From a virus: a DNA stretch of 45,251 bases. The notes under the pieces are model-generated. The model was given only the letters and a program-made list of their open reading frames with translations. It was not told where the DNA came from and ran no database searches. The DNA is taken from positions 1-45,251 of IMG/VR virus record IMGVR_UViG_3300027987_000080, one strand, 5' to 3'. This document shows positions 3,892 through 45,164 of this stretch, one piece after another (positions within the stretch are counted from its first letter, which is position 1; the number at the start of each line of letters is the position of its first letter). Both the position numbers and the translations under genes were made by a program.

Positions 3892-4151
3892 GTACCACTA
3901 CACCGACTTACCGAAACATGTGGCAGATGAGATCGAGATCTGCCCTTTCTACGGCTGCTGGATCTACAAAAAGCACACGAACAACCGCGGCTACTCACGC
4001 ATTTGGTGTTGGAATATTCGTTTTTTTAGCACATAAGTTCGCTTACGAGTACCTAGTCCGGCCTATAGTCAATTTGAAAGGATTGGACCTTGACCACACT
4101 TGCGCAACTCGCGAGTGCATAAACCCTGCTTTCAGGCGACTGCATCATTGA
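3884..4151 (+). pseudogene. HNH homing-type endonuclease, frameshifted at a T7 run
   Basis: Two frames together encode one HNH_3-type endonuclease. Frame one (ATG 3884 to TAA 4034) gives CPFYGCWIYKK, then NNRGYSRIWCWNIRF. The frame one base later then continues LAHKFAYEYLV, then LDLDHTCATRECINPA, up to TGA 4149. Joined, they read as the classic order GCW, GY-x-R-I, AH-x-x-AYE, LDH-x-C, C-x-NP of phage HNH proteins. The switch falls exactly on seven Ts at 4021-4027; one T fewer would restore the frame. The enzyme would nick or cut DNA and drive its own spread. It is either a decayed gene, a slippage-expressed gene, or a sequencing error. After the conserved NP the frame ends early, so the C-terminus may also be damaged. 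Confidence 0.7.
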
Positions 4152-4296
4152 ACAGCATAATGCTGGCTACATTCGCCGTAGGAAGGGAGGCCCGAAGGAG
4201 CGTGTACACTCGACGGTTATGAATCTCTACATCGACACCCGCCTGTTCGACCAGCCACTTGTAATCATGAACTGACCAACAACGGAGGCAAAACCG

Positions 4297-4497
4297 ATGT
4301 TTAAAATTCCTTTTGACCCCGGCAGCGGGATTGAGTGGGACCTTAAAAAGATCCAACTTACCCTAAAACCTGGGAGGTACTATTTGAACGGTCTGTACAT
4401 AACGTGCACAGGACTAACCCTAGTTGAAACAACGGACCGGCTTGATATTCGAGGGGACGGACTTCCAGCGCCACGCTTTAAACGCGCCAGGACTTGA
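4297..4497 (+). CDS. Small hypothetical protein (66 aa)
   Basis: ATG 4297 is preceded by an ACGGAGGC ribosome binding site at good spacing, which supports translation despite the short length. The product is beta-rich (LTLKPGRYYLNGLYITCTG) with a basic C-terminus. No family recognised. The 145 bp before it hold the remains of the HNH region and no clear gene. Confidence 0.55.
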   Translation: MFKIPFDPGSGIEWDLKKIQLTLKPGRYYLNGLYITCTGLTLVETTDRLDIRGDGLPAPRFKRART

Positions 4498-4555
4498 CCC
4501 CAAACCTCAAAACGTGCAAACTGCGCATCTAAACAACGAACTACAGGGCGAGTAA

Positions 4556-4738
4556 ATGGCCACATTATTAAAACCCGCCGAGGTTGCCAAACGCCTCGAC
4601 ATCTCAAAGCGTAAAGTGTACTACCTCATCGCTCAGGGCGAGCTGCCCAGTCAGCGGCACCTCGTCACCGGTGCCGTACGCGTTACCTTATCCGATTTAA
4701 ACGACTATATCAGGACTCGAAAAGCCGCCAATGCTTGA
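4556..4738 (+). CDS. MerR/AlpA-type excisionase-like HTH protein
   Basis: A 60-residue helix-turn-helix protein of the HTH_17 (excisionase/AlpA) type: LLKPAEVAKRLDISKRKVYY, then LIAQGELP and V-x-L-x-DLNDYI. These small winged-helix proteins bind DNA as regulators or recombination directionality factors. The gene overlaps the primase-helicase start by eight bases, so its likely job is control of replication genes. No integrase is seen in the window, so an Xis role is not supported here. Confidence 0.8.
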   Translation: MATLLKPAEVAKRLDISKRKVYYLIAQGELPSQRHLVTGAVRVTLSDLNDYIRTRKAANA

Positions 4739-7196
4739 ACTCGCAGAACAACTGCGAGCTGTCGGCGTTTATTCTTTTCCATGCTGGGCCAAACACGACC
4801 CCGTTAAAAATAAATGGAGAAAAGGACCCTCGGTGCCTGCCGGGGAGCCCTGGCAGCTGTCCGCACTTCGCCCCGTCAACGACCCGCATTTTAATTGGGC
4901 GTCTGGCGTTATTGGGGTGCCGGTACCAGCGGACTTACTGGTACTCGATCTCGACAAGTACAAAGGCGCCACCCGTGAGGCGATCGATGCGGCTGTCGGC
5001 TGCGCCCTGCCCTGGGATCAAGCCTTCATACAGACCACCATCGGCGGGGGCGAACACTATGCGTTTAGATGCCGTTGGAAAGCCCGCCAGGGGGACTCAA
5101 TAGCCGGCGTGCCTGGCTTCGATACCAGGGCAGCCCTGCGCGGTTTCATATGCTCAGGGGCCGGCTACGCGCCCGTTAACCACGGCGGCGTGTTTGCCTT
5201 TGCCAGCCCCGAAGTACTGCCCGAACTGCCCGATGCCTGCCGCCGCTTGCTTGAAGTTGTAGACCAACCGCCGACCTCCAAAACCGAATATCAACCACGG
5301 GCCCAAGATGCGCAAATACTCGAAGCCTTGAGGCACATAGACCCGGGCTGCTCGCGCGATAAGTGGCGCAACATTGGATACGCGCTTAAGGCGCTGTACG
5401 CACAAGACGACATCGAAGGCCAAGCGGTTTTCGAGTCTTGGTCCTCCGGCGAGCTGTGGGATGGCGACCAACCGCACAACTACGTCAGCGACGGTAAGGG
5501 TTCTGTATCGGACCAGTGGCCGACCTTTAAAGCCGAGGGCGGTGTTAATCCGCAGACCCTTTTCTATTGGGCGATAGACGGCGGCTGGCGCCCGCCGCCT
5601 ACCGTCGACGCGGCCGAAGCCTTCTGTGCGGCGCCCGACCGCTTCGATACGCTTATTGACCAAATACGCAGGGACGGTGCGGACGTAAAAAAGACTGAAA
5701 ATATTATCGAAAGCATTAAGGCCGCCGGTTGTAGCCCGTTGCAGACCGCCCTGTTGGCCGCTGAGCTGAAGACGGAACTTAAGGGCGCGGGGATTAAAGA
5801 CAAAGCCATTGACGCGCATGTTGACCGGATCTTAAACAACCGTCAGGCAGACTTTACGCCAGCGGGTTTTTACGGCAAAAACGATACGGACAACGCGCTG
5901 ACTTTCTTAAATAAGTACTACCCCGAGGGCGCTTTAGCGCGATGTGACGGGGCCTTTTATCGTTTTGAGGGCCGCCACTGGTCTCGGCTTACAACGGACA
6001 CATTAAAACACCAAATAGCGGCCGACATGGCCCAACAACGCATGCAAGAGTCAAAAGTCAGCGCGTGCTTTAGAATGACAAATAACTTAACCCCCGTACT
6101 CGACGGACAGTTAAATTGTACTCCAGAGAATTTGGTGGTTTTTAACAACGGCGTGTTTGACTTAAACACCGGCGTTTTAAACCCACACGACCGGCGGTTA
6201 TTTACGACCAACATCTTGCCGTATGATTGGAATCCGTCGGCTACGTGCCCTCAGTGGCTGGAATTTTTGAACGACATATTCAGTAATGACTACGAACGTG
6301 TTGCGCTGTTGCAGGAGTGGCTGGGGTACCTATTGACGGGCAGCAACCTGCACGAAAAAATAATGATACTCCTTGGCGGCCCCGGCAGCGGTAAGGGCAC
6401 CATAGGCAAAGTGCTGGCCGCACTGGTCGGCGAACATAATTTCAGCGGCGGCAGCCTGTCAAAGCTGGTCGTAGACTCATATCTGGACGGACTCAGCGAA
6501 AAGCCCGTCGTTTTTATAGGTGATGCTGCCAAGAAAGTAAGCCCTGTAAAAATTCACGACGTGATTGAAACCCTAAAAGCCATAAGCGGTAACGACGCCC
6601 TGGGCTGGCATCGTATGTACCACGGCCTGGTAACTCGTGTACTCCCAACACGGTTCACTATTGCGGCCAACAGCGTCCCCTCGCTATTCGACGACTCCGG
6701 CGCCCTGGCTTCTCGAATGATGCTGTTGACGTTCGATAAGTCTTACCGCGGCACGGGAAAAGAAGATTTAACGCTAGTCGGTCGCCTGATTAATGAGATC
6801 GAAGGGATAGCCGCATGGGCTCTTGAGGGTGTCCGCCGGCTTAATCAAAACGGGCGGTTTACCAAACCCGCGGCCTGCGCGGAGGAGCATAACCTAATTG
6901 TGGAGGACTATTGCTCGGTTCAAAGATTTGTTAATGCGTGTTGTACGTTTGATCCTGCCGCCGAAACTTCAGGCCGCGAACTCTACGACGCCTACCGCTC
7001 TTGGGCTCTATCCGAAGGTGAAGACCCCGTGCGTCAACGTAGTCTGGTCAACGCCATACGGGACGCCTACCGCGGGCGCTCCGTGCGCTACGGGGTGCAC
7101 TGGGAGGGCGGCAAGAGTACCCGCGGGTTTCAAGGCCTGGCGGTACGCGCCGTGACCCCCTTCCAACCAAGAGTAATAACCAGCACAGGGAAATAA
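4731..7196 (+). CDS. Primase-helicase: Prim-Pol N-terminus and D5/P4-type SF3 helicase
   Basis: An 821-residue bifunctional replication protein. The N-terminal Prim-Pol domain shows the metal-binding DLD at residues 73-75 (VLDLDKYKG) and the partner motif TTIGGGEHY ending near residue 110, the usual archaeo-eukaryotic primase layout. A PriCT-like segment follows (IDPGCSRDKWRNIGYALKAL, about 205-225). The C-terminal half is a D5/P4-type helicase with Walker A GGPGSGKGT at 549-557, a VVFIGDAAK stretch near 585-600 and a sensor-like TIAANSVP. It would prime and unwind at the phage origin. The ATG at 4731 overlaps the HTH gene stop. A winged-helix region (RRFLNQ-type in P4) is likely at the C-terminus but not clearly visible. 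Confidence 0.9.
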   Translation: MLELAEQLRAVGVYSFPCWAKHDPVKNKWRKGPSVPAGEPWQLSALRPVNDPHFNWASGVIGVPVPADLLVLDLDKYKGATREAIDAAVGCALPWDQAFIQTTIGGGEHYAFRCRWKARQGDSIAGVPGFDTRAALRGFICSGAGYAPVNHGGVFAFASPEVLPELPDACRRLLEVVDQPPTSKTEYQPRAQDAQILEALRHIDPGCSRDKWRNIGYALKALYAQDDIEGQAVFESWSSGELWDGDQPHNYVSDGKGSVSDQWPTFKAEGGVNPQTLFYWAIDGGWRPPPTVDAAEAFCAAPDRFDTLIDQIRRDGADVKKTENIIESIKAAGCSPLQTALLAAELKTELKGAGIKDKAIDAHVDRILNNRQADFTPAGFYGKNDTDNALTFLNKYYPEGALARCDGAFYRFEGRHWSRLTTDTLKHQIAADMAQQRMQESKVSACFRMTNNLTPVLDGQLNCTPENLVVFNNGVFDLNTGVLNPHDRRLFTTNILPYDWNPSATCPQWLEFLNDIFSNDYERVALLQEWLGYLLTGSNLHEKIMILLGGPGSGKGTIGKVLAALVGEHNFSGGSLSKLVVDSYLDGLSEKPVVFIGDAAKKVSPVKIHDVIETLKAISGNDALGWHRMYHGLVTRVLPTRFTIAANSVPSLFDDSGALASRMMLLTFDKSYRGTGKEDLTLVGRLINEIEGIAAWALEGVRRLNQNGRFTKPAACAEEHNLIVEDYCSVQRFVNACCTFDPAAETSGRELYDAYRSWALSEGEDPVRQRSLVNAIRDAYRGRSVRYGVHWEGGKSTRGFQGLAVRAVTPFQPRVITSTGK

Positions 7197-7207
7197 CAAA
7201 ACGGTAT

Positions 7208-7246
7208 TTGATGAATCCGTGCACAGCGTGCATACTGTACACAGTA
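7208..7246 (+). promoter_or_regulatory. Promoter with 14-bp operator-like dyad
   Basis: TTGATG at 7208-7213, exactly 17 bp, then CATACT at 7231-7236 preceded by TG. A perfect inverted repeat TACTGT-AC-ACAGTA (7233-7246) overlaps the -10 and start region, well placed for a repressor. The block GCGTGCATACTGTAC is shared with the promoter at 19817-19845. It would drive 7270 onwards. Confidence 0.65.
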
Positions 7247-7269
7247 ACTAACAACAGTCGGAGCACGTC

Positions 7270-7524
7270 ATGGATAAATTAGTTTTTGTATTTTTGGCCT
7301 TTTTAGTTTGCCTATTAGCCTGCTTAGTGTTTTGGGGGCTTTCACTCCAGGCCACAGAAAGGGCAGAGTGGTCGACGTTTTCTTCTCAGCACAACTGTAA
7401 AATTGTCGGCCAGGAAAAAGCGGAGGTTTCTTTTGGGGTCAGCTCAAACGGGGTTTTAACTCCGATCGTGAGCGCTGAAAAAATAGGCTATCAATGTGAC
7501 GACGGCATCACATACTGGAGGTAA
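7270..7524 (+). CDS. Small single-span membrane protein (84 aa)
   Basis: An N-terminal hydrophobic segment (LVFVFLAFLVCLLACLVFWG, residues 4-23) is followed by a soluble domain of about 55 residues with cysteines at HNCKIVG and QCDDG. The orientation is probably N-in with the soluble part periplasmic, where the two cysteines could pair. The upstream CGGAGCACGTC provides a ribosome binding site. First gene after the 7208 promoter; unknown function. Confidence 0.65.
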   Translation: MDKLVFVFLAFLVCLLACLVFWGLSLQATERAEWSTFSSQHNCKIVGQEKAEVSFGVSSNGVLTPIVSAEKIGYQCDDGITYWR

Positions 7525-7529
7525 GAGTC

Positions 7530-7745
7530 ATGAGCAATAGCCTAGAATCCCTAACAGAAGAACTGATCGCGGCGCAAACCCGATTGAATTCGGGCCACAT
7601 GTCACACGCCGCCTACAAAACAATTGAACGTCGTATTATCCCCCAGCTCAAAGAGCTTAACCACCAACGCTACGGCCACGCAATGGGCCTCCGCAACGTC
7701 CGCCGCCTCCGCGAAATTCAGGCCATCGGCCGGGACGTCTTATGA
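7530..7745 (+). CDS. Hypothetical helical protein (71 aa)
   Basis: A basic, all-helical 71-residue protein starting at ATG 7530 with GGAGGTAAGAG upstream, a strong ribosome binding site. It ends overlapping the GGDEF gene start (four bases), so the two are probably co-translated. The segment EELIAAQTRLNSGHMSHAAYKT suggests a helical hairpin. No family recognised. Confidence 0.6.
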   Translation: MSNSLESLTEELIAAQTRLNSGHMSHAAYKTIERRIIPQLKELNHQRYGHAMGLRNVRRLREIQAIGRDVL

Positions 7746-8224
7746 AGCGCGAACTGCTCAGACGGCTTAAAAGCCTCAGTGATGCCGACCTTTACAAAGA
7801 GGTTTATACAGACCCGCTGACCGGCGCCCTAAACCGCCGGGCTTTTGATCTTCGAGACGGCGGCTATCTCGCCTTACTAGACCTGGATTCGCTTAAATAT
7901 ATCAATGATACCCTTGGGTACCGTTGGGGCGACAAGTTTTTAAAACGGACGGCGGGGTGTTTGATGACAGTTTTCGGCGACGACTCAGTTTATCGCCTCG
8001 GCGGGGATGAATTCGTCGTCGTATCAAAAGAAATCTGCGGTTTTACCCGCAAAATGATGGACTTGCAGAGCGTCCTACCCGTGTTTAGCTTCGGCATTGC
8101 GGCCTCTATGGGTATCGCGGATAAAAAGCTCAAAGAACAGAAGAAAGCCCGGGAGGCAAAAGGCTTGCGGGCCTCTACCGGCCAGGTGCCGCCGTGGATA
8201 GGGTCGGTATTATGCACGGCCTAA
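7742..8224 (+). CDS. Stand-alone minimal GGDEF domain protein (putative diguanylate cyclase)
   Basis: A 160-residue protein made almost only of a GGDEF domain. Visible motifs in order: DPLTGALNRRAF at 24-35, LDLDSLKYINDTLGYRWGD at 46-64 (metal and base-contacting D-x-D-x-x-K-x-x-ND), and RLGGDEF at 85-91 with the signature intact. The residue expected to be Arg in the RxxD inhibitory site is Phe, so feedback inhibition by c-di-GMP should be absent. The C-terminal part is compressed: the S-x-G-x-A strand runs straight into an ADKKLKEQKKAR helix. No sensor domain or membrane span. If active it would make c-di-GMP from two GTP in the host cytoplasm; activity depends on dimerisation. Confidence 0.85.
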   Translation: MKRELLRRLKSLSDADLYKEVYTDPLTGALNRRAFDLRDGGYLALLDLDSLKYINDTLGYRWGDKFLKRTAGCLMTVFGDDSVYRLGGDEFVVVSKEICGFTRKMMDLQSVLPVFSFGIAASMGIADKKLKEQKKAREAKGLRASTGQVPPWIGSVLCTA

Positions 8225-8424
8225 GGATCGCGTTCATGTTGGCCGTCAGCTGGACGTTCGGTTACGTCCAGGGAATCGACGCCTATCAAGACCGACACCG
8301 GGAGGCCGTACGCCAGGCCGCGGAACACCAACGGTTGTTAGACGCCTGCCAACGCAACGGCGCGCAGTGCCAACTGTACGCCTGTTATACAACTCAAAGA
8401 GGAGGATTTATCTGTGGAAGTTGA
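8212..8424 (+). CDS. Small exported or membrane-anchored protein (70 aa)
   Basis: An N-terminal hydrophobic stretch (GLRIAFMLAVSWTFGYVQG) is followed by a helical, charged segment and a Cys-rich end (ACQRNGAQCQLYACYTT, then GGFICGS). This layout suggests an inner-membrane anchor with a disulfide-stabilised periplasmic tail. ATG 8212 overlaps the GGDEF stop; ATG 8194 is an alternative. Function unknown. Confidence 0.55.
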   Translation: MHGLRIAFMLAVSWTFGYVQGIDAYQDRHREAVRQAAEHQRLLDACQRNGAQCQLYACYTTQRGGFICGS

Positions 8425-8899
8425 AATTCAAACATCAATTAAATTTTTTGCCGGCACTCATGGCACCGATGTTAATTTTGAAAAAGCCTTAGCGGCAGCG
8501 TTTAAAAAAGACAGGGGGCGCCTAACCGAGGAGCACCGGCTGCGGGTTTATTTCGATAACTGGCTACAGTACGAGGCCTTTTACACGGAGAATATAAGCA
8601 TTGCCAATTTTGAAACAATTCTTAAAAGCCAATTCCTGCGACCAGAACAAGTCGACTTGCACGATGACCCGCACGATCCGTTTAGGCACGTCCAAGTCGT
8701 GACTATAGAGGTTGCTAAAATCAAAAATAAATTCGACCGATACGTCATCAATATCGAGGTCGATCGTTCTAAAATCTCAGACCCCCTTACAGTTGATCTT
8801 GCTTTTCCCCATCTTTACAGGGGCGGTTTCTGTGTTTCTGAAGGGGACCAGCGTCAAGTTGTTGAAGGGCTCATCTTCGAGTTTACCAAAAAGGGCTAA
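8414..8899 (+). CDS. Hypothetical protein (161 aa), GTG start
   Basis: The GTG at 8414 is chosen because AGAGGAGG lies eight bases upstream, one of the best ribosome binding sites in the window, even though it overlaps the end of the previous gene. The product is a soluble alpha/beta protein with an acidic centre (LHDDPHDPFRH). It directly precedes the large LRR gene (three bases). No family recognised; a partner of the LRR protein is only a suggestion from position. Confidence 0.65.
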   Translation: MEVEIQTSIKFFAGTHGTDVNFEKALAAAFKKDRGRLTEEHRLRVYFDNWLQYEAFYTENISIANFETILKSQFLRPEQVDLHDDPHDPFRHVQVVTIEVAKIKNKFDRYVINIEVDRSKISDPLTVDLAFPHLYRGGFCVSEGDQRQVVEGLIFEFTKKG

Positions 8900-8902
8900 C
8901 CC

Positions 8903-9721
8903 ATGAAATTAATCAAGATCAAGCACTACGTCGAGAACTCTTACGCGGGCAAACCCTCGTTCGTACTGGCCATGTCTGATGGTTACGACTACATCAGCAA
9001 CGGCTGTGTGTTCGTCCAGGACACCGCTGAAGGACGGGCGGGCCTCATTAACGACTACAACTGCCGGGATCGGCTGTCAGAGCTGTTTACGGCCCCCGGT
9101 ATTGAAATCCACCAGTTAACCAACGGCGCTTACATGTTCGACGGCTGCGAGGCCCTGACTGAGGCGCCCCGTGAGCTGCCAGCGTTAGTCGACGGCTATT
9201 GCATGTTCCGCCGCTGTACGTCCCTAACTCACACCCCCTGTGAGCTGCCAGCGTTGACCGACGGCACAGGGATGTTCTACAACTGCAAGTCCCTAACTCA
9301 AACCCCCCGTGAGCTGCCAGCGTTGACCGACGGCACGTGCATGTTCCGCGGCTGCGTGTTACTGACTGAGGCGCCCCGTGAGCTGCCAGCGTTAGTCGAC
9401 GGCGAGTGCATGTTCGATGGCTGCATGTCGCTGACTGCGGCCCCTCGCCAGCTGCCGGCGTTGACCTGCGGCTGTTGCATGTTCAAGGGCTGCACGTCGC
9501 TGACGCAGGCGCCCCGTGAGCTGCCGGCGTTAACCAACGGCACGTGCATGTTCCGCGGCTGCGTGTTACTGACTGAGGCGCCCCGTGAGCTGCCAGCGTT
9601 GACCGACGGCACAGGGATGTTCTACTACTGCACGTCCCTAACTCACACCCCCCGTGAGCTGCCAGCGTTGACCTGCGGCTATTGCATGTTCGATGGCTGC
9701 ACGTCCCTGACTGAGAACTAA
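8903..9721 (+). CDS. BspA-type leucine-rich-repeat protein, full length (LRR copy 3)
   Basis: The complete 272-residue member of the LRR family in this window. Residues 1-72 form a non-repeat N-terminal module (KHYVENSYAGKPSF, then VLAMSDGYDYIS) with no signal peptide, so the protein is probably cytoplasmic or on the virion. Nine 23-residue repeats follow, with the scaffold MF-x-x-C-x-x-LT-x-x-P-x-x-LPAL-x-x-G. The paired residues before MF (AY, YC, TG, TC, EC, CC) and after MF (DG, RR, YN, RG, KG, YY) vary. TpLRR solenoids usually present such positions on one face for binding. Bases 9330-9393 and 9537-9600 are identical, showing internal duplication. No cognate ligand is known. Confidence 0.85.
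   Translation: MKLIKIKHYVENSYAGKPSFVLAMSDGYDYISNGCVFVQDTAEGRAGLINDYNCRDRLSELFTAPGIEIHQLTNGAYMFDGCEALTEAPRELPALVDGYCMFRRCTSLTHTPCELPALTDGTGMFYNCKSLTQTPRELPALTDGTCMFRGCVLLTEAPRELPALVDGECMFDGCMSLTAAPRQLPALTCGCCMFKGCTSLTQAPRELPALTNGTCMFRGCVLLTEAPRELPALTDGTGMFYYCTSLTHTPRELPALTCGYCMFDGCTSLTEN
9107..9715 (+). repeat. Tandem 69-bp LRR-coding repeats, copy 3
   Basis: About nine direct 69-bp repeats. Bases 9240-9334 match 314-408 base for base (95 bp), and 9330-9393 match 9537-9600 (64 bp). Silent sites are as conserved as coding ones in the scaffold parts, which points to recent recombination rather than selection on protein alone. Confidence 0.9.
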
Positions 9722-9724
9722 CCC

Positions 9725-9886
9725 ATGAATAACTTTCTATCTGACACGCGAAAAATGAACAAGGTGTCCCAATCTTGCCGCAATGATCAACAGAGGGAGG
9801 TTGCTAAACGATACTTTCGACTTTACACGTTAAAGTGGCCCCGCCAGGTGTTAGGGCTCTACCCCGGGATTTTAAAGAAGCCGTGA
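9725..9886 (+). CDS. Small basic hypothetical protein (53 aa)
   Basis: ATG 9725 lies three bases after the LRR stop, in the same stop-CCC-ATG arrangement seen before the LRR gene at 8903. The product is basic and helical (DQQREVAKRYFRLYTLKWP). Its stop overlaps a GTG start (GTGA) of the next frame. No strong ribosome binding site, so expression would rely on coupling. Confidence 0.45.
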   Translation: MNNFLSDTRKMNKVSQSCRNDQQREVAKRYFRLYTLKWPRQVLGLYPGILKKP

Positions 9887-10098
9887 GCACAATATTGGAG
9901 CTCAACCGGCGGATTGATGCCGCGGCCGGTAAGCACCCGGCCGGCTCGTCTGCCCGCATTTGGGCAGCACGTTGGGCTGTCGAACAAGCGTATAGGGAAG
10001 GTTTAATATGCAGACCGCCAGAGTGGTTGGGGCCTACGGTTTTTTTGCTATACTTGGGGCCAAACTGTACCGGCTTGGAGTTCCGAATCGTGCCGTGA
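9883..10098 (+). CDS. Hypothetical protein (71 aa), GTGA-coupled start
   Basis: A frame open from 9835; the GTG at 9883 forms a GTGA overlap with the preceding stop, a common coupling signal. The segment ARIWAARWAVEQAYREGLI, then CRPPEWLG, reads like a real helical protein. The last 91 bases overlap the membrane-protein gene at 10008, so either the two overlap heavily or one is spurious. Unknown function. Confidence 0.4.
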   Translation: MSTILELNRRIDAAAGKHPAGSSARIWAARWAVEQAYREGLICRPPEWLGPTVFLLYLGPNCTGLEFRIVP

Positions 10099-10265
10099 CT
10101 CGTTTCGTATTTTGGTTTTGCGTTGTCTTAATACTTTGGCTGCTGGTTTCTCTGGCGGCAGCTTTTCTGATCGCCCGATATATTACGACAACGTTTTTAA
10201 AGCTTGAACACGAAGAGGGTCTGAGGGGTCCAGGGGGCACTCCCCGCAAACGATGGACTGTGTGA
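10008..10265 (+). CDS. Small membrane protein (85 aa)
   Basis: AGGGAAGG ends six bases before ATG 10008, a convincing ribosome binding site. The product has a strong transmembrane helix (FVFWFCVVLILWLLVSLAAA, about residues 33-52) and a short charged C-terminus. Its last 83 bases overlap, in antisense, the 3' end of the TetR-like gene. Unknown function. Confidence 0.5.
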   Translation: MQTARVVGAYGFFAILGAKLYRLGVPNRAVTRFVFWFCVVLILWLLVSLAAAFLIARYITTTFLKLEHEEGLRGPGGTPRKRWTV

Positions 10266-10464
10266 TTACAGGCCAATGCTTCTGGGCGATCGCATGCTCG
10301 ACCAATTCACGACGAAAACCTTCCATACCTTCAAAGTGGTGATTCAAAAGGGGGCCTGTAACTCCGGCTGCTACGCCTATTTGCTCCCGAGTTAAGTTTT
10401 TATAGCCTTGTTTTTCAGACAGAACCAGGGCTGCGTCAAGCATTTGTGTACGTCGGTTTTTCAT
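10183..10464 (-). CDS. TetR-type HTH mini-regulator without ligand domain
   Basis: A 93-residue protein consisting of a TetR N-terminal DNA-binding domain: TQMLDAALVLSEKQGYKNL, then TREQIGVAAGVTGPLLNHHF. Normal TetR regulators are about 200 residues with an effector and dimerisation domain, which is missing here; short phage versions of this form exist. ATG 10464 overlaps the VRR-NUC stop by four bases, placing it last in the leftward helicase operon. It is probably a constitutive or phage-partnered regulator. Its 3' end overlaps a rightward gene in antisense. Confidence 0.75.
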   Translation of the reverse strand: MKNRRTQMLDAALVLSEKQGYKNLTREQIGVAAGVTGPLLNHHFEGMEGFRRELVEHAIAQKHWPVITQSIVCGECPLDPSDPLRVQALKTLS

Positions 10465-10967
10465 AATTCCAAGTCTCCGCTACAAAAAGTCGCAAAACCC
10501 CCTATTCTTTTAATGAGTGCCAGCCAGGCGGCCTGTGCCGGTTCCTGGCGCGTGCCTGTGTAGGTCCATCCCGGTTTTTTCGTTTCGACGGCGCCGAACT
10601 GCGCTATAGTCGTTCCCACGTCCTCGGGCCGTATGACTCGCGGGATGGCCAATATTAAGTCACTTGATTTTACCCTTTGGTTAAGCTTTTGGGAATCATT
10701 AGCCAGCCCGTAGCGTATCGGCTGTTGTTTTTCTTCAAACCGCATTGCGCACCGGGGGCAAGTATGCTTGGTTTTGGCGGGGGTGGCCCCGACGTTATTG
10801 CGCCATGCGTAACCCCCCTGTCGAGATACGCTAAGCCGTACTTGCTGCTGTACGGCGGCCTCCCCTTTTACTCGCGGATCTAGCGGTACGGCCCGAACCT
10901 CAGCAAACATCCGCTCAAGATCGGCGGCGGCGACGGGGTGCATGAGGGCCCACTGTTGGTAGGTCAT
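10461..10967 (-). CDS. VRR-NUC domain nuclease
   Basis: A 168-residue VRR-NUC (PD-(D/E)XK superfamily) protein. Landmarks: E-x-x-VQQQVRLSVSRQGGYAWRN at about 36-57, RYGLANDS near 86-93, SSDLILAIP as the metal-binding Asp region, then VETKKPGW as the E-x-K core, ending AQAAWLALIKRIGG. Stand-alone phage VRR-NUCs are structure-selective nucleases that cut branched DNA. A CPRC pair lies at about 70-73. It overlaps its neighbours by four bases on each side, in one operon with an exonuclease and a helicase, which suggests recombination or fork processing. Confidence 0.85.
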   Translation of the reverse strand: MTYQQWALMHPVAAADLERMFAEVRAVPLDPRVKGEAAVQQQVRLSVSRQGGYAWRNNVGATPAKTKHTCPRCAMRFEEKQQPIRYGLANDSQKLNQRVKSSDLILAIPRVIRPEDVGTTIAQFGAVETKKPGWTYTGTRQEPAQAAWLALIKRIGGFATFCSGDLEL

Positions 10968-11488
10968 CGTATTAGCTCCGGTCGGTGTTTCAGCAGTCGT
11001 TCTGCCTGTGTTAGCGCATCGTGCAAGGCGTGGTGATGGGCCCCTGTGCGATTGCTGTCATCGAACCGAAGCCCCGCCATGGCCGTGCGATAACAGCGGT
11101 TATTATAGAACTTCCAAGGCGCTTCGCGGCCGCATAGTGAATACGCGTTTTCCAAGATAGCGTTATCAAAATTCGCACCGTTGCCCCATACCTTTGGTTC
11201 AGAAAGGGTGTAAATAAAATTTGAAAATTGTCTAAGGGCCTCTTGTATCGGTACGGCCGACGGGTCATTAAAAACTTGGCGTGCTTCCTTTGATTGACGT
11301 TGCCACCAGGCTATGGTGCTGGCGCTTTCTGTAAGCCCTAAATCTTTGCAGCTTTGATAATCTACGGCGGTATAGAACGTTTTACCAGCGGCCGGCCCCT
11401 TAAAGACCCCGGCACCGATTGAAAGTATCCCCGCCGTGGCCACCGTGTGGGTGGTTTCTAAGTCCACCATTACGTGATCATCATTCAT
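10964..11488 (-). CDS. DEDDh 3'-5' exonuclease (Rv2179c / RNase T-like)
   Basis: A 174-residue exonuclease of the DnaQ-like fold. The three Exo motifs are visible: MVDLET with D9 and E11, WGNGANFDNAIL with D108, and HHHALHDALTQA with the His of Exo III (H152) and D157. The length and the SIGAGVFKGPA strand fit the Rv2179c-like group (PF16473), which trims 3' overhangs of RNA or DNA. It lies between the helicase and VRR-NUC with four-base overlaps, so it likely acts with them. Confidence 0.87.
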   Translation of the reverse strand: MNDDHVMVDLETTHTVATAGILSIGAGVFKGPAAGKTFYTAVDYQSCKDLGLTESASTIAWWQRQSKEARQVFNDPSAVPIQEALRQFSNFIYTLSEPKVWGNGANFDNAILENAYSLCGREAPWKFYNNRCYRTAMAGLRFDDSNRTGAHHHALHDALTQAERLLKHRPELIR

Positions 11489-14238
11489 TGTATTAAGTCC
11501 TCGTTAAAACGTTGTGTGATTTTGTCGATTAGCGCTTCGGTTTCGCGCAGTTTAAGTGTAAAAGCCGTCCCGATATCGATGCCAAAGCGCAAATAAAAAC
11601 GTCGGTGCACTTCTGATAGCTCGCGATGCGATTGCAGCCCGACCCACCAGCCGACTAAGTTGCGCAGTACCTCCCGTTGGGCCTTGGTGTCGATGTGCCT
11701 GCGCAAGTCTTTGTTACGTCCGATCGACGGGATGCCACGACGTATTTGATCCCGCTTGTAGTCGTCGATTGACATATCGGCGCGGTCCATCCGCTCAAAC
11801 AGTGCGGCCATGGCGTCAACGTCGAGTTCAAATAAGTCACCGTCTACCTGTTCCGGTGCCGATCGGCCGCCGGTCACGGGGCGCGGTTCGCCGCAGTAGG
11901 GGCAGGCCTTGTAGTATCGTTCAAACGGTTGGGTACACGCCGTGCAGATAGTTTGCGGCGTCATCCCGTCCTGCTTGCTACGGCTGCCTTTCTCCACCCC
12001 GGCCAGGGACCATACCCGCGGCCAGTTGGGCATGCCGTGGCGCTCCCAATTGCGGACGGGGTCAATAACGATAGCATATGGCTTAGGCCCGGCAGCCATG
12101 GCCGCCAGACGGCCTTCAACCGTGTCAAGGTCAAAACCTTTTGCGTATACCGGGCGAAGTGCTCGGCCGATCATTTGCAGATCCTTAGCCAACGATTCAG
12201 TTTTGCGGGCAAGTAAGACGGCCTCGACTTCGGGCACGTCGAAGCCCTCATCGAACAGATCGACGTTTATCAACACCGTCACCGCGCCCTCTTCAAACGC
12301 GTCAAGCGTCCGGTCTCTTACGTCCGGGTCAGTCTCTCCACTGAGGGCGGCCGCAGTCACTCCCGACGCTTTGAAGTCATTCGCCACTTCGTGTGCAGTC
12401 TCTACGTCATTGGCGAACACCAGGGCTTTTTTACCGGCGGCAAACTGCTGATACTGTGCTACAACATCGCCGACAAAATCCGATGCTACGATGCGTTTGC
12501 GCATAACTCTGGTATTGAGTTCGCCGCTTGCCGTAATCGGGATGTCTGACAGATTTAAGTCAGTGGACGGCGCACAGTACTTAAACCGGCAAAGGTAGCC
12601 CTCCTCAATCAGCTGTTTAGTGCTGGGCCCCTCGACGATAATTTCAGCAAACCCGTCGTGCCCTCTGCCCAGCCCTTTGCCGTCGGCCCGTTCGGGGGTC
12701 GCGGTCATAAATAGTTTTACACCACGTGACAGCATGTGGACTGCTTTAGACCAAACGCCCTGCTCAACATAGTGGTGGCCCTCATCGAATACCGATAGGG
12801 TTACCTGATAGACCCACTGCTGCAGCTCTTTATTGGTGTCGCTGGCTTTACTGGTCAACGTCTGGACCGACACCACCCCCACCGGAGCCTGTGGGTCAAC
12901 AAACGATTTGCCGAATTTCTTTAAATGCTTTCGCCGTATTCGGGTGATGACTTGCGGCGGTGCTATGATGCGATGATGCACGCCCAACAGCGCCAGGGCT
13001 ACGCTTATTTGCCCGAGTATTTCTTTGCGATGTACGACCGCCGCCGCCGCGCCTTTGTGGTTGTGCACGATCGAGGCAAAGCACACGGTATTATGCGTAA
13101 CCGTGAAGTCGCCCAACAGGAACAAATGGTCGCCGTCTATCTCAAATCCGTAGTACTCGCCCTCCCCTACTGGGTCTACTGAAATTCCGGTAACTAACGG
13201 CGACTTTATTTGTGTACGAATAGGCGCTTTTTTCCTCCGCACTTTAACCGGTACCACCGACAAATCCCCGCTAATAGAAACGCGGTAGTACAACCCTTCT
13301 TTGCCTGTGTTGCCGCAAGTCTTACGGGCGTCTGAAACGTACGCTGCGAAGCCTAAAGAACGGCACAAATAAGCCACGTCTTGGGCTAATTTTTTTTCCT
13401 TTGATATGTAGTCATAACCTGCCCGGGATAAGGACCCGTCTGAATCGATAAGCCCTGCGAGGAGGCTTAGGCGGGACGCCCGATCCGTGGCTTTGTACTC
13501 CAACGGAACGTGTTTGTTGCATAGTAAATTATGCTTATACAAGGCCCCTTTTACCCCCGCTCGCCATTTACCTCTAGCGCTGAAATGGTACGTTTTAGCT
13601 GCGTTATTTGACGAAAGGGTTTCAGTGCGTAAAGGAAGGTCGTGTATGCCGGCGTGGGTTTTTAAATACTCGACTATTTCTCCGTCGGCCGTTGTAATTG
13701 CGGCGGTACGGGAGCTGCCGTCCCCCAGCCAAAGGCCCAATAGATAGGGCGGCAATAACGGGTCCACCTCGGCCGCAGGCCAGTCTACCCCGGTCCTCCA
13801 GCCCTTATGGGTGTGGCGAAAGTTGCGTGACGATTCGTAAAAGTCTTTAACATTTACGTTTTTAACCGTCCCCTTTCCGGTTTGACATGGGTAACGTGGT
13901 TCGGACTTTAGGCCGGTTTGCTTTAGACTGAGTATATGACTCTCGTTAACTGTATACGGGTCTCCTTTAACCGGGGTGACACGGTACATCATTTCACGGC
14001 CGGAGCACGTCGATATCACTCGTCGGGGGGCGCTATCGGGGCCCATTAATAAGTCCCCTTTGCGAATATCCTCTACGACTTTTACCGTACCGTCAAACAT
14101 TAAAACGGGGGTACCCTTAGCAAGGCACTTACCTCCGCCTGTAGGGAGCACGCCCAGGACTGACGTAAACTGCGCCCAAGCGTCGTAAATCGCAGCAATA
14201 AAAGCCTCTTGATAGTCGCGAAGTTTAATCACTTTCAT
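11485..14238 (-). CDS. SF2 DEAD/DEAH-type helicase precursor interrupted by an intein
   Basis: A 917-residue precursor; removing the intein (residues 38-383) leaves a 571-residue ResIII-type SF2 helicase. Extein motifs: Walker A PTGGGK joined to T, motif Ia region VVHRKEILGQI, motif II DEGHH (SVFDEGHHYVEQGVW), motif III MTATPER, motif V INVDLFDEGFDVPE, and motif VI QMIGRALRP. A zinc-knuckle CTACTQPFERYYKACPYCGEP follows, then a helical C-terminal domain. It would unwind or remodel DNA with the downstream nucleases. The precursor cannot bind ATP before splicing because the intein separates GGGK from its Thr. It is the first gene of the leftward operon, reading away from the 14246 promoter region. 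Confidence 0.9.
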   Translation of the reverse strand: MKVIKLRDYQEAFIAAIYDAWAQFTSVLGVLPTGGGKCLAKGTPVLMFDGTVKVVEDIRKGDLLMGPDSAPRRVISTCSGREMMYRVTPVKGDPYTVNESHILSLKQTGLKSEPRYPCQTGKGTVKNVNVKDFYESSRNFRHTHKGWRTGVDWPAAEVDPLLPPYLLGLWLGDGSSRTAAITTADGEIVEYLKTHAGIHDLPLRTETLSSNNAAKTYHFSARGKWRAGVKGALYKHNLLCNKHVPLEYKATDRASRLSLLAGLIDSDGSLSRAGYDYISKEKKLAQDVAYLCRSLGFAAYVSDARKTCGNTGKEGLYYRVSISGDLSVVPVKVRRKKAPIRTQIKSPLVTGISVDPVGEGEYYGFEIDGDHLFLLGDFTVTHNTVCFASIVHNHKGAAAAVVHRKEILGQISVALALLGVHHRIIAPPQVITRIRRKHLKKFGKSFVDPQAPVGVVSVQTLTSKASDTNKELQQWVYQVTLSVFDEGHHYVEQGVWSKAVHMLSRGVKLFMTATPERADGKGLGRGHDGFAEIIVEGPSTKQLIEEGYLCRFKYCAPSTDLNLSDIPITASGELNTRVMRKRIVASDFVGDVVAQYQQFAAGKKALVFANDVETAHEVANDFKASGVTAAALSGETDPDVRDRTLDAFEEGAVTVLINVDLFDEGFDVPEVEAVLLARKTESLAKDLQMIGRALRPVYAKGFDLDTVEGRLAAMAAGPKPYAIVIDPVRNWERHGMPNWPRVWSLAGVEKGSRSKQDGMTPQTICTACTQPFERYYKACPYCGEPRPVTGGRSAPEQVDGDLFELDVDAMAALFERMDRADMSIDDYKRDQIRRGIPSIGRNKDLRRHIDTKAQREVLRNLVGWWVGLQSHRELSEVHRRFYLRFGIDIGTAFTLKLRETEALIDKITQRFNEDLIQ
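13090..14127 (-). mobile_element. Intein with LAGLIDADG homing endonuclease in the helicase P-loop
   Basis: A 346-residue in-frame insertion. It begins with Cys (CLAKGTPVLMFDG, block A), has block B around PYTVNESHILSL, and two dodecapeptide-type endonuclease motifs (LLGLWLGDGSS, about 166-176, and LLAGLIDSDGSL, about 259-270). It ends with block F (EYYGFEIDGDHLFLL) and block G VTHN, with Thr as +1 extein residue. All key splicing residues (Cys1, block B His, penultimate His, terminal Asn, Thr+1) are present, so self-splicing is expected. The insertion point GGGK/T is a preferred intein site in P-loop ATPases. Confidence 0.95.
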
Positions 14239-44327: not shown

Positions 44328-45164
44328 TCAATCTTTTGTGACACTGGCCAAATTCCTTTCAATTTTGCTTTTTACCGGTCGAATAAAGGACCCCACAACG
44401 TCCGCCACATATGACTCGATCTCTTGGCTCGTTACGCCCGCTTGGTGTTTCGACAACACCGCCGAGGTGATGGCCTTCGCGCCGTCAGTCATTAGGCGCA
44501 CGTGTGCGGAATTGAAGGGATCGACGACCCCGGTTTCGACTAAACGTCGGCTGACTAACTTTCCCATTGACTGGGCGTTTTTAATCCGTTTTTCGTTTAC
44601 CGCCTCGATCTCTTTTAACGCTTTCAGCCAATCCAAAAAGCGCAAACCCGTCCCAAACTTATCTATTAACTCACGCAACGTGAGGTCCGCCATTGACTCG
44701 ATGTCGTCCGGTATCTCTACCAGTTCGCTTTCATCATGCCAGCTGATCTTCTTTCCCTTCCCGTGCTTGCGCTCGGGTTTAGGCGCCTGCGCTTGCTGTG
44801 TGGCCGGCACCGGTTTAGATCGTTGGCTTTCAGGAACATGACCGGCGGCGGCTAGCTGGGCGTGTATCCGTTTGGCCCTGGCGTACCCGATCTTAAACGC
44901 ACTATAAACGGCTGAAGGACTCCACACTCCACGGCGGCGGCATACCTCTAAGGCGTCATTGAAAAGGGGGTCAACACCGGGGGCCGGTTCGGGTGGTCGA
45001 GGCGCGGTCATCTTCTCTACGTATTCGATAGCCGCTGGGTGTGAATAGTCGATTCTATCTCCGACTAAAGCGGCTTTTAGATTGCCTTTAAGCTGTTTGG
45101 TCACAGCCGCGGCGGTAACTCGACATCTTCTGGCAAAAGCGGCCTTAGTCTCTAACTTCATCAT
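44328..45164 (-). CDS. Terminase small subunit-like protein with FtsK-gamma-like domain
   Basis: A 278-residue DNA-binding protein. Residues 1-50 resemble Nu1-type HTH domains (ETKAAFARRCRVTAAAVTKQ, then GDRIDYSHPAAIEYV). Residues 65-110 (DPLFNDALEVCRRRGVWSPS, then AFKIGYARAKRIHAQLAAAG) match the winged-helix gamma domain of FtsK, which reads KOPS sequences. A basic linker and a C-terminal helical domain follow, the latter possibly binding the large subunit. It probably recognises the packaging site with two different DNA-binding modules. No ribosome binding site precedes the ATG; the promoter lies immediately upstream. Confidence 0.75.
   Translation of the reverse strand: MMKLETKAAFARRCRVTAAAVTKQLKGNLKAALVGDRIDYSHPAAIEYVEKMTAPRPPEPAPGVDPLFNDALEVCRRRGVWSPSAVYSAFKIGYARAKRIHAQLAAAGHVPESQRSKPVPATQQAQAPKPERKHGKGKKISWHDESELVEIPDDIESMADLTLRELIDKFGTGLRFLDWLKALKEIEAVNEKRIKNAQSMGKLVSRRLVETGVVDPFNSAHVRLMTDGAKAITSAVLSKHQAGVTSQEIESYVADVVGSFIRPVKSKIERNLASVTKD

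Follow-up and report, generated by a model that had tools for sequence, protein, structure and literature searches.

A short GGDEF gene lying among the replication genes of a phage raises the question of whether it encodes a working diguanylate cyclase and, if so, what such an enzyme would do during infection. The gene was studied in the window, an entire IMG/VR virus record of 45,251 bases that may itself be a fragment; its position and those of the relevant features are collected in Table 1. A preliminary description had taken the product for a GGDEF protein with all catalytic motifs, and this was borne out by matches to Pfam GGDEF PF00990 (residues 23-98, E 8.9e-14, 52 bits against a cut-off of 23.8), NCBIfam TIGR00254 (52.7 bits, cut-off 37.4) and PHROG phrog_5594 (residues 6-152, E 2.7e-29), together with the motifs read from the sequence (D47-L-D49-S-L-K52, N55-D56, G63-D64 and R85-L-GGDEF, followed by A126-D127...K134 in the C-terminal half). 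The metal- and guanine-binding roles given to these residues are those of PleD-type cyclases, which we assume to apply here, and K134 is likely the phosphate-binding lysine. At two places the protein departs from canonical enzymes: leucine is found where the DxDxFK block has the Phe of 'FK', and the second phosphate-site arginine, which we take to lie at K+4 in enzymes such as PleD, has its counterpart in R137 at K+3, out of register.

The domain and about 22 N-terminal residues fill the whole protein, which is thus without a sensor, as described earlier. A dedicated dimerisation module is also absent; GGDEF enzymes work as dimers. The RxxD site, which is common in GGDEF enzymes but does not define them, normally stops them as product accumulates; here it is gone, and the replacement of its arginine by phenylalanine (F78) was confirmed. 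Because the catalytic motifs are complete while both a sensor and the RxxD site are missing, the gene is best read as encoding an unregulated cyclase.

Table 1. Features in and around the GGDEF gene (positions in the window)
Feature	Positions	Strand	Remarks
D5-like primase/helicase, upstream of the GGDEF gene	4731..7196	+	Same neighbour in L016, L018 and L019
71-aa ORF directly upstream of the GGDEF gene	7530..7745	+	ATGA overlap of its stop with the GGDEF start
GGDEF gene; compact stand-alone protein of 160 aa, a predicted diguanylate cyclase	7742..8224	+	ATG start, family matches, fold model
Block D47LDSLKYINDTLGYRWGD64	7880..7933	+	Putative metal Asp and guanine-binding Asn/Asp; family form 'DLDSLK[WY].ND'
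RxxD product-inhibition (I-site) position	7973..7984	+	F78-G-D-D81; no I-site
GGDEF active-site hairpin, residues 87-91	8000..8014	+	
Last helix and tail, A126-D...K134..RE..G.R..TG..PPW152	8117..8197	+	Clade signature
Rv2179c-like exonuclease	10964..11488	-	CN2, MP1412 and L018 have a member of its family close to the GGDEF gene

The predicted structure answers one doubt about this protein, namely whether its compressed C-terminus can fold. AlphaFold2, supplied with a 23-row alignment, modelled a complete GGDEF domain with a mean pLDDT of 95.3 and a pTM of 0.87, so a normal fold is confidently predicted. When the model was compared with known structures by Foldseek, GGDEF-domain structures were found throughout the best 50 matches. 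VIA-align superimposed it on 3qyy_B (Z 15.7, rmsd 1.9, 124 aligned residues) and on PleD with c-di-GMP and GTP-alpha-S (2v0n_A; Z 14.4, rmsd 1.6, 119 aligned residues), and the best match in a library of viral structures was a protein of Bordetella phage CN1.

Matches were found by tblastn in 151 of 50,697 phage records; 47 of them covered at least 80% of the query and none reached 60% identity. Among the matches listed, the best relatives came from Vojvodinavirus and Yuavirus (44-48% identity over 87-88% of the query), several being annotated as diguanylate-cyclase GGDEF proteins and others as hypothetical. The homologue of Yuavirus MP1412 adjoins an antirestriction gene, and an exonuclease gene lies nearby in both CN2 and MP1412. 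In the copy of Epa38 (L009, 562-1026), the N-terminal part resembles Bordetella phages and the C-terminal tail resembles Yuavirus when compared by eye, a mosaic that suggests within-gene recombination. A relative search with the window protein alone confirmed none.

Scans of IMG/VR located the domain on 27 distinct contigs. Thirteen copies stand alone (L005, L006, L016-L023, L025, L029 and L123), and 14 lie within very large reading frames (L007, L008, L024, L026-L028, L030-L034, L124, L125 and L130), which, within the stretch covered by each locus, are 1,628 to 3,217 codons long and include two apparent near-copy pairs, L030/L031 and L124/L125. Three of the giant frames were scanned with Pfam: the polyvalent-protein domain LPD22 scored above the cut-off in L034 (E 1e-9) and just under it in L008 (E 2.6e-6, 28 versus 28.6), and none was found in L007. 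The L008 frame (3982-10749) encodes a 2256-aa protein with two tandem GGDEF-like domains, the first degenerate (GGDF, with the metal Asp lost) and the second carrying SGDEY. The idea that the window gene arose from an ordinary cyclase by truncation or frameshift was rejected, since the compact form recurs in the 13 stand-alone IMG/VR copies and in named phages. A scan of genome contigs returned 80 loci, 28 of which were put in the tree described below; by full-length identity, L035 was the sole clear clade member among those examined. This copy (6001-6471) comes from a contig that was binned with a Microbacteriaceae genome and has genes in common with Yuavirus and Vojvodinavirus; the contig is probably mis-binned phage DNA.

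To place these copies, a quick IQ-TREE tree with a midpoint root was built from 60 rows, 28 from phages and 32 for comparison (27 from bacterial genomes and five ordinary cyclases on viral contigs). L008, because of its degenerate first domain, was dropped from the alignment and the tree, and L009-L011, as near copies, from the tree; L031 and L125, which nearly duplicate L030 and L124, and L038, in which no motif was found, were dropped as well. Twenty-seven phage rows, including the window protein, fell on one branch (SH-aLRT 91, length 0.71). The long-branched L033 lay outside it, and the split of all 28 phage rows from the 32 others had a support of 74. Ten fused copies made up one subgroup inside the 27-row branch (support 88), with a similar tail motif in most of them.

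Motifs were counted in 27 phage rows, leaving out L123, whose motif was unmatched. The RxxD site was present in none of them, versus 24 of the 32 comparison rows, and conversely the conserved tail K..R...G.R..(R/T)G..P was found in 23 phage rows, that of the window protein included, versus no comparison row. The active-site motif read GGDEF in 14 rows, SGDEF in 10 and AGDEF in three, and the guanine-selecting position was Asp in 26 and Asn in one. The distance from this motif to the last helix, extracted with a crude regular expression that returned nothing for L020 and an uncertain value for L033, was 39 residues in the window protein and 36-40 in most stand-alone copies (the exceptions being L025, with 63, and L029, with 61), versus a median of 63 in the comparison rows. 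The fused copies keep a longer spacing of 45-58, the doubtful 37 of L033 being left out, and the shortest form is therefore typical of stand-alone copies. Thus, the C-terminus is indeed short, as the preliminary description stated, but damage or truncation does not explain it: the short form is family-wide and is predicted to fold well. Judged from sequence comparison, the compact C-terminus is a hallmark of the phage clade, whose members recur in phages that are not related to one another.

Residues D47, N55, G88-D-E-F91, G118, A126 and K134 were invariant in all 23 aligned rows and D64 in 22, though conservation of the GDEF columns is inflated, partly by construction, because most of the rows came from a search pattern that contained GDEF. 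A control scan with patterns taken from the D47-D64 block only gave 18 loci, namely 13 clade members, nine of them on contigs already known, and five ordinary cyclases (L129, L132, L133, L134 and L136), which were set aside and reused as comparison rows. [GSA]GDEF was present in 12 of these 13 clade members; in L123 the loop is one residue short. NG86 dN/dS ratios, obtained with a script that handles multi-step codon paths simply, were 0.18-0.55 in each of the 28 pairs formed by eight copies of the Yuavirus/Vojvodinavirus type, which indicates purifying selection among them; pairs with the window copy were mostly saturated. Relatives with a broken GGDEF, which had been named beforehand as an argument against activity, do occur. 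Besides the first domain of L008 and L123, they include the gene of Pseudomonas phage EKU1 (L012, 595-1161), which is annotated as a diguanylate cyclase although it is frameshifted after the motif and its C-terminal half is scrambled; it is either a pseudogene or a sequencing error. Most of the clade, however, keeps the catalytic residues.

The minus strand of the window encodes the tail sheath, baseplate proteins, tape measure, portal, terminase, capsid, head protease and further tail proteins; the sheath, baseplate and other structural genes identify the virus as a contractile-tailed phage. Its replication set comprises a D5-like primase, DNA polymerase, Gp2.5-like SSB, helicase and exonucleases. 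Two small ORFs separate the primase from the GGDEF gene; the 71-aa ORF, for which a Pfam scan found no family match above cut-off, looks translationally coupled to the GGDEF gene because of the stop/start overlap. The 'early region' of the preliminary description reflects position: the gene lies on the plus strand among replication genes, opposite the structural genes, and we infer 'early' itself from this placement downstream of the primase.

When terminases are compared, Shewanella phage SppYZU01 (61%) and Acinetobacter phage Scuro (56%) come nearest to the window among named phages. The GGDEF gene is absent from all four nearest named TerL relatives (SppYZU01, Scuro, PY6 and AeroV_348) and is hence dispensable. 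The window primase also lies upstream of the GGDEF gene in L016, L018 and L019, and the window helicase and nucleases are also found in L016 and L019; these common genes indicate that part of the window's own lineage has kept the GGDEF gene. In L016, DnaJ-like and sigma-factor-like proteins (5043-5615 and 6425-7021) flank the GGDEF gene, as judged by eye. ORF clustering over 15 GGDEF loci, made up of the window, L002, L003, L035 and the IMG/VR stand-alone loci other than L006 and L123 (11 of 13), found no neighbour family common to more than four.

The window record contains no integrase of family PF00589, the only recombinase family covered, and a temperate lifestyle was rejected on this ground, with the caveat that the record may be a fragment. 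No c-di-GMP receptor of the PilZ kind was found in the record. PADLOC models matched neither the GGDEF protein nor the four window neighbours tested, and identity with a CBASS or other defence gene was rejected.

We conclude that the window gene probably encodes a minimal, constitutively active c-di-GMP synthase that lacks feedback and is made early to reprogramme the host. The protein would be produced early in infection, dimerise and condense two molecules of GTP into c-di-GMP; lacking RxxD, it would not stop when product accumulates, and the cell under infection would be reprogrammed by the resulting rise in c-di-GMP. Pili and exopolysaccharide are under c-di-GMP control. The rise would most plausibly alter surface structures (pili, flagella or exopolysaccharide), and the altered surface might exclude competing phages or shield against them; interference with nucleotide-based defence is the second candidate effect. 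A switch of lifestyle would be an awkward fit for a virulent phage, and the record has no PF00589 integrase; a biofilm programme seems too slow for this virulent-looking phage, and a fast surface change or interference with defence fits better. That the same domain also occurs in polyvalent-type proteins, which are proposed to be delivered upon invasion, favours a function right at the onset of infection.

Lysogens of the Bordetella phage LK3, which carries a GGDEF gene, form hyperbiofilm but are also more motile, which is opposite to a simple c-di-GMP rise and is therefore not a clean c-di-GMP signature; the available text of the report describes no GGDEF knockout, and the gene was not isolated there as the cause (PMC8471281). 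Two early proteins of Pseudomonas phage JBD44, Eht1 and Eht2, are reported to stimulate host c-di-GMP signalling and to help phage replication (PMC11898732), much as proposed here for the window protein; since the terms GGDEF and diguanylate are absent from the accessible text of that paper, they are not presented there as cyclases. In the open-licence literature we found no enzymatic test of any member of the compact clade.

A broader proposal is that phages own a lineage of brake-less cyclases delivered in two ways, either built into giant proteins that enter along with the phage DNA or made separately as a free protein early in infection, and that a flood of c-di-GMP at the start of infection is a general weapon of host takeover or anti-defence rather than a lysogenic biofilm gene. 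We put this forward tentatively and consider it somewhat doubtful.

An alternative that we regard as unlikely, though the strongest of those considered, is that the product is not c-di-GMP, or that c-di-GMP jams or mis-triggers host nucleotide-based immunity rather than changing surface or lifestyle. A different base is argued against by the guanine-selecting Asp, kept in 26 of 27 rows. Interference with immunity would agree with the fusion of related domains into very large proteins, two of them with LPD22, with the antirestriction gene beside the Yuavirus copy and with the small gain that a biofilm would bring to a virulent phage, and the text available for PMC5512222 proposes that proteins of this polyvalent class enter together with invading DNA and disturb the nucleotide responses of the host. 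Against this, neither the window protein nor its four tested neighbours has a PADLOC match, and the protein is not known to have a defence target.

We consider it distinctly improbable that the protein is a non-catalytic binder of GTP or c-di-GMP acting as a decoy, sink or receptor, a possibility raised in the preliminary description and weakened by the present data. FimX and LapD are examples of degenerate GGDEF domains, and the compact C-terminal half, the Leu in the DxDxFK block, the out-of-register arginine and the degenerate relatives (the first domain of L008, and L123) would all suit such a role. However, the metal Asp, N55, GDEF and K134 are kept in 23 of 23 rows, the full domain, short C-terminus included, is modelled at high confidence, and the lack of RxxD in 27 of 27 rows makes product sensing through that site unlikely. 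A GTP-using enzyme acting in the replication module rather than in signalling is very improbable: a D5-like primase adjoins the gene in the window, L016, L018 and L019 and an exonuclease lies near it in CN2, MP1412 and L018, but host-takeover genes commonly share the replication region, the fused copies belong to very large proteins that are not replisome proteins, and four TerL relatives replicate without the gene.

Hybrid GGDEF enzymes that make cGAMP have Ser or Thr in place of the guanine-selecting Asp, and the window protein, which keeps D64, is not of that type. The fold and catalytic residues are those of PleD, WspR and DgcB; the window protein differs from these enzymes in having no sensor, no I-site, about 24 fewer residues between the motif and the last helix and an extra conserved tail of the phage type. 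Its closest counterparts are the phrog_5594 proteins of Yuavirus (MP1412) and Vojvodinavirus (CN1, CN2, MW2 and FP1), which likewise stand alone, are about 150-160 aa long, have the compact spacing and the tail, lack the I-site and have an exonuclease nearby. The window copy has GGDEF where the copies fetched from these genera have AGDEF or SGDEF and, unlike them, it belongs to a contractile-tailed phage of another lineage and lies beside a primase. Identity with mCpol/Panoptes OptS, in which the GGDEF motif is nearly absent and the palm is Cas10-like in the available description (PMC12657218), was rejected, as the GGDEF motif is intact and the best structural matches are GGDEF cyclases.

Phage polyvalent proteins with GGDEF domains were described by Iyer et al. 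in 2017, who in the accessible part of that paper proposed that they are delivered upon invasion and suggested that their GGDEF domains could disturb host responses that rely on similar nucleotides (PMC5512222). Our fused copies, in proteins of about 1,600-3,200 aa, are likened to these by description and not by sequence comparison. The window protein, a separate single domain of 160 aa, is not a very large multidomain protein with LPD-type domains and so falls outside the polyvalent class. GGDEF genes of Yuavirus and Vojvodinavirus are already annotated and discussed, and GGDEF domains in polyvalent proteins are already described; we found no paper in the open-licence literature describing a compact, I-site-free phage GGDEF clade, and description at the level of the clade may be new. 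If active, these small natural cyclases, devoid of the feedback site throughout the clade, would mean that phages benefit from a high c-di-GMP level while they infect. They would also allow a direct test of whether phages and bacteria contend over c-di-GMP, be it through receptor display, superinfection exclusion or second-messenger immunity, and would provide a small cyclase free of regulation for laboratory use.

Several other genes of the window deserve mention. Two plus-strand proteins in the replication half of the genome (13-582 and 8903-9721) match phrog_9915, the latter with BspA-like leucine-rich repeats. An FtsK/SpoIIIE-like protein on the minus strand (44328-45164), matching phrog_13700, which is filed under moron/host takeover, adjoins the terminase gene. 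The minus-strand helicase (11485-14238) is 917 aa long, versus 549 and 553 aa in L016 and L019; it contains an extra stretch after a Walker-type GGGK, starting CLAKGTPVLMFDG, which to our eye resembles an intein.
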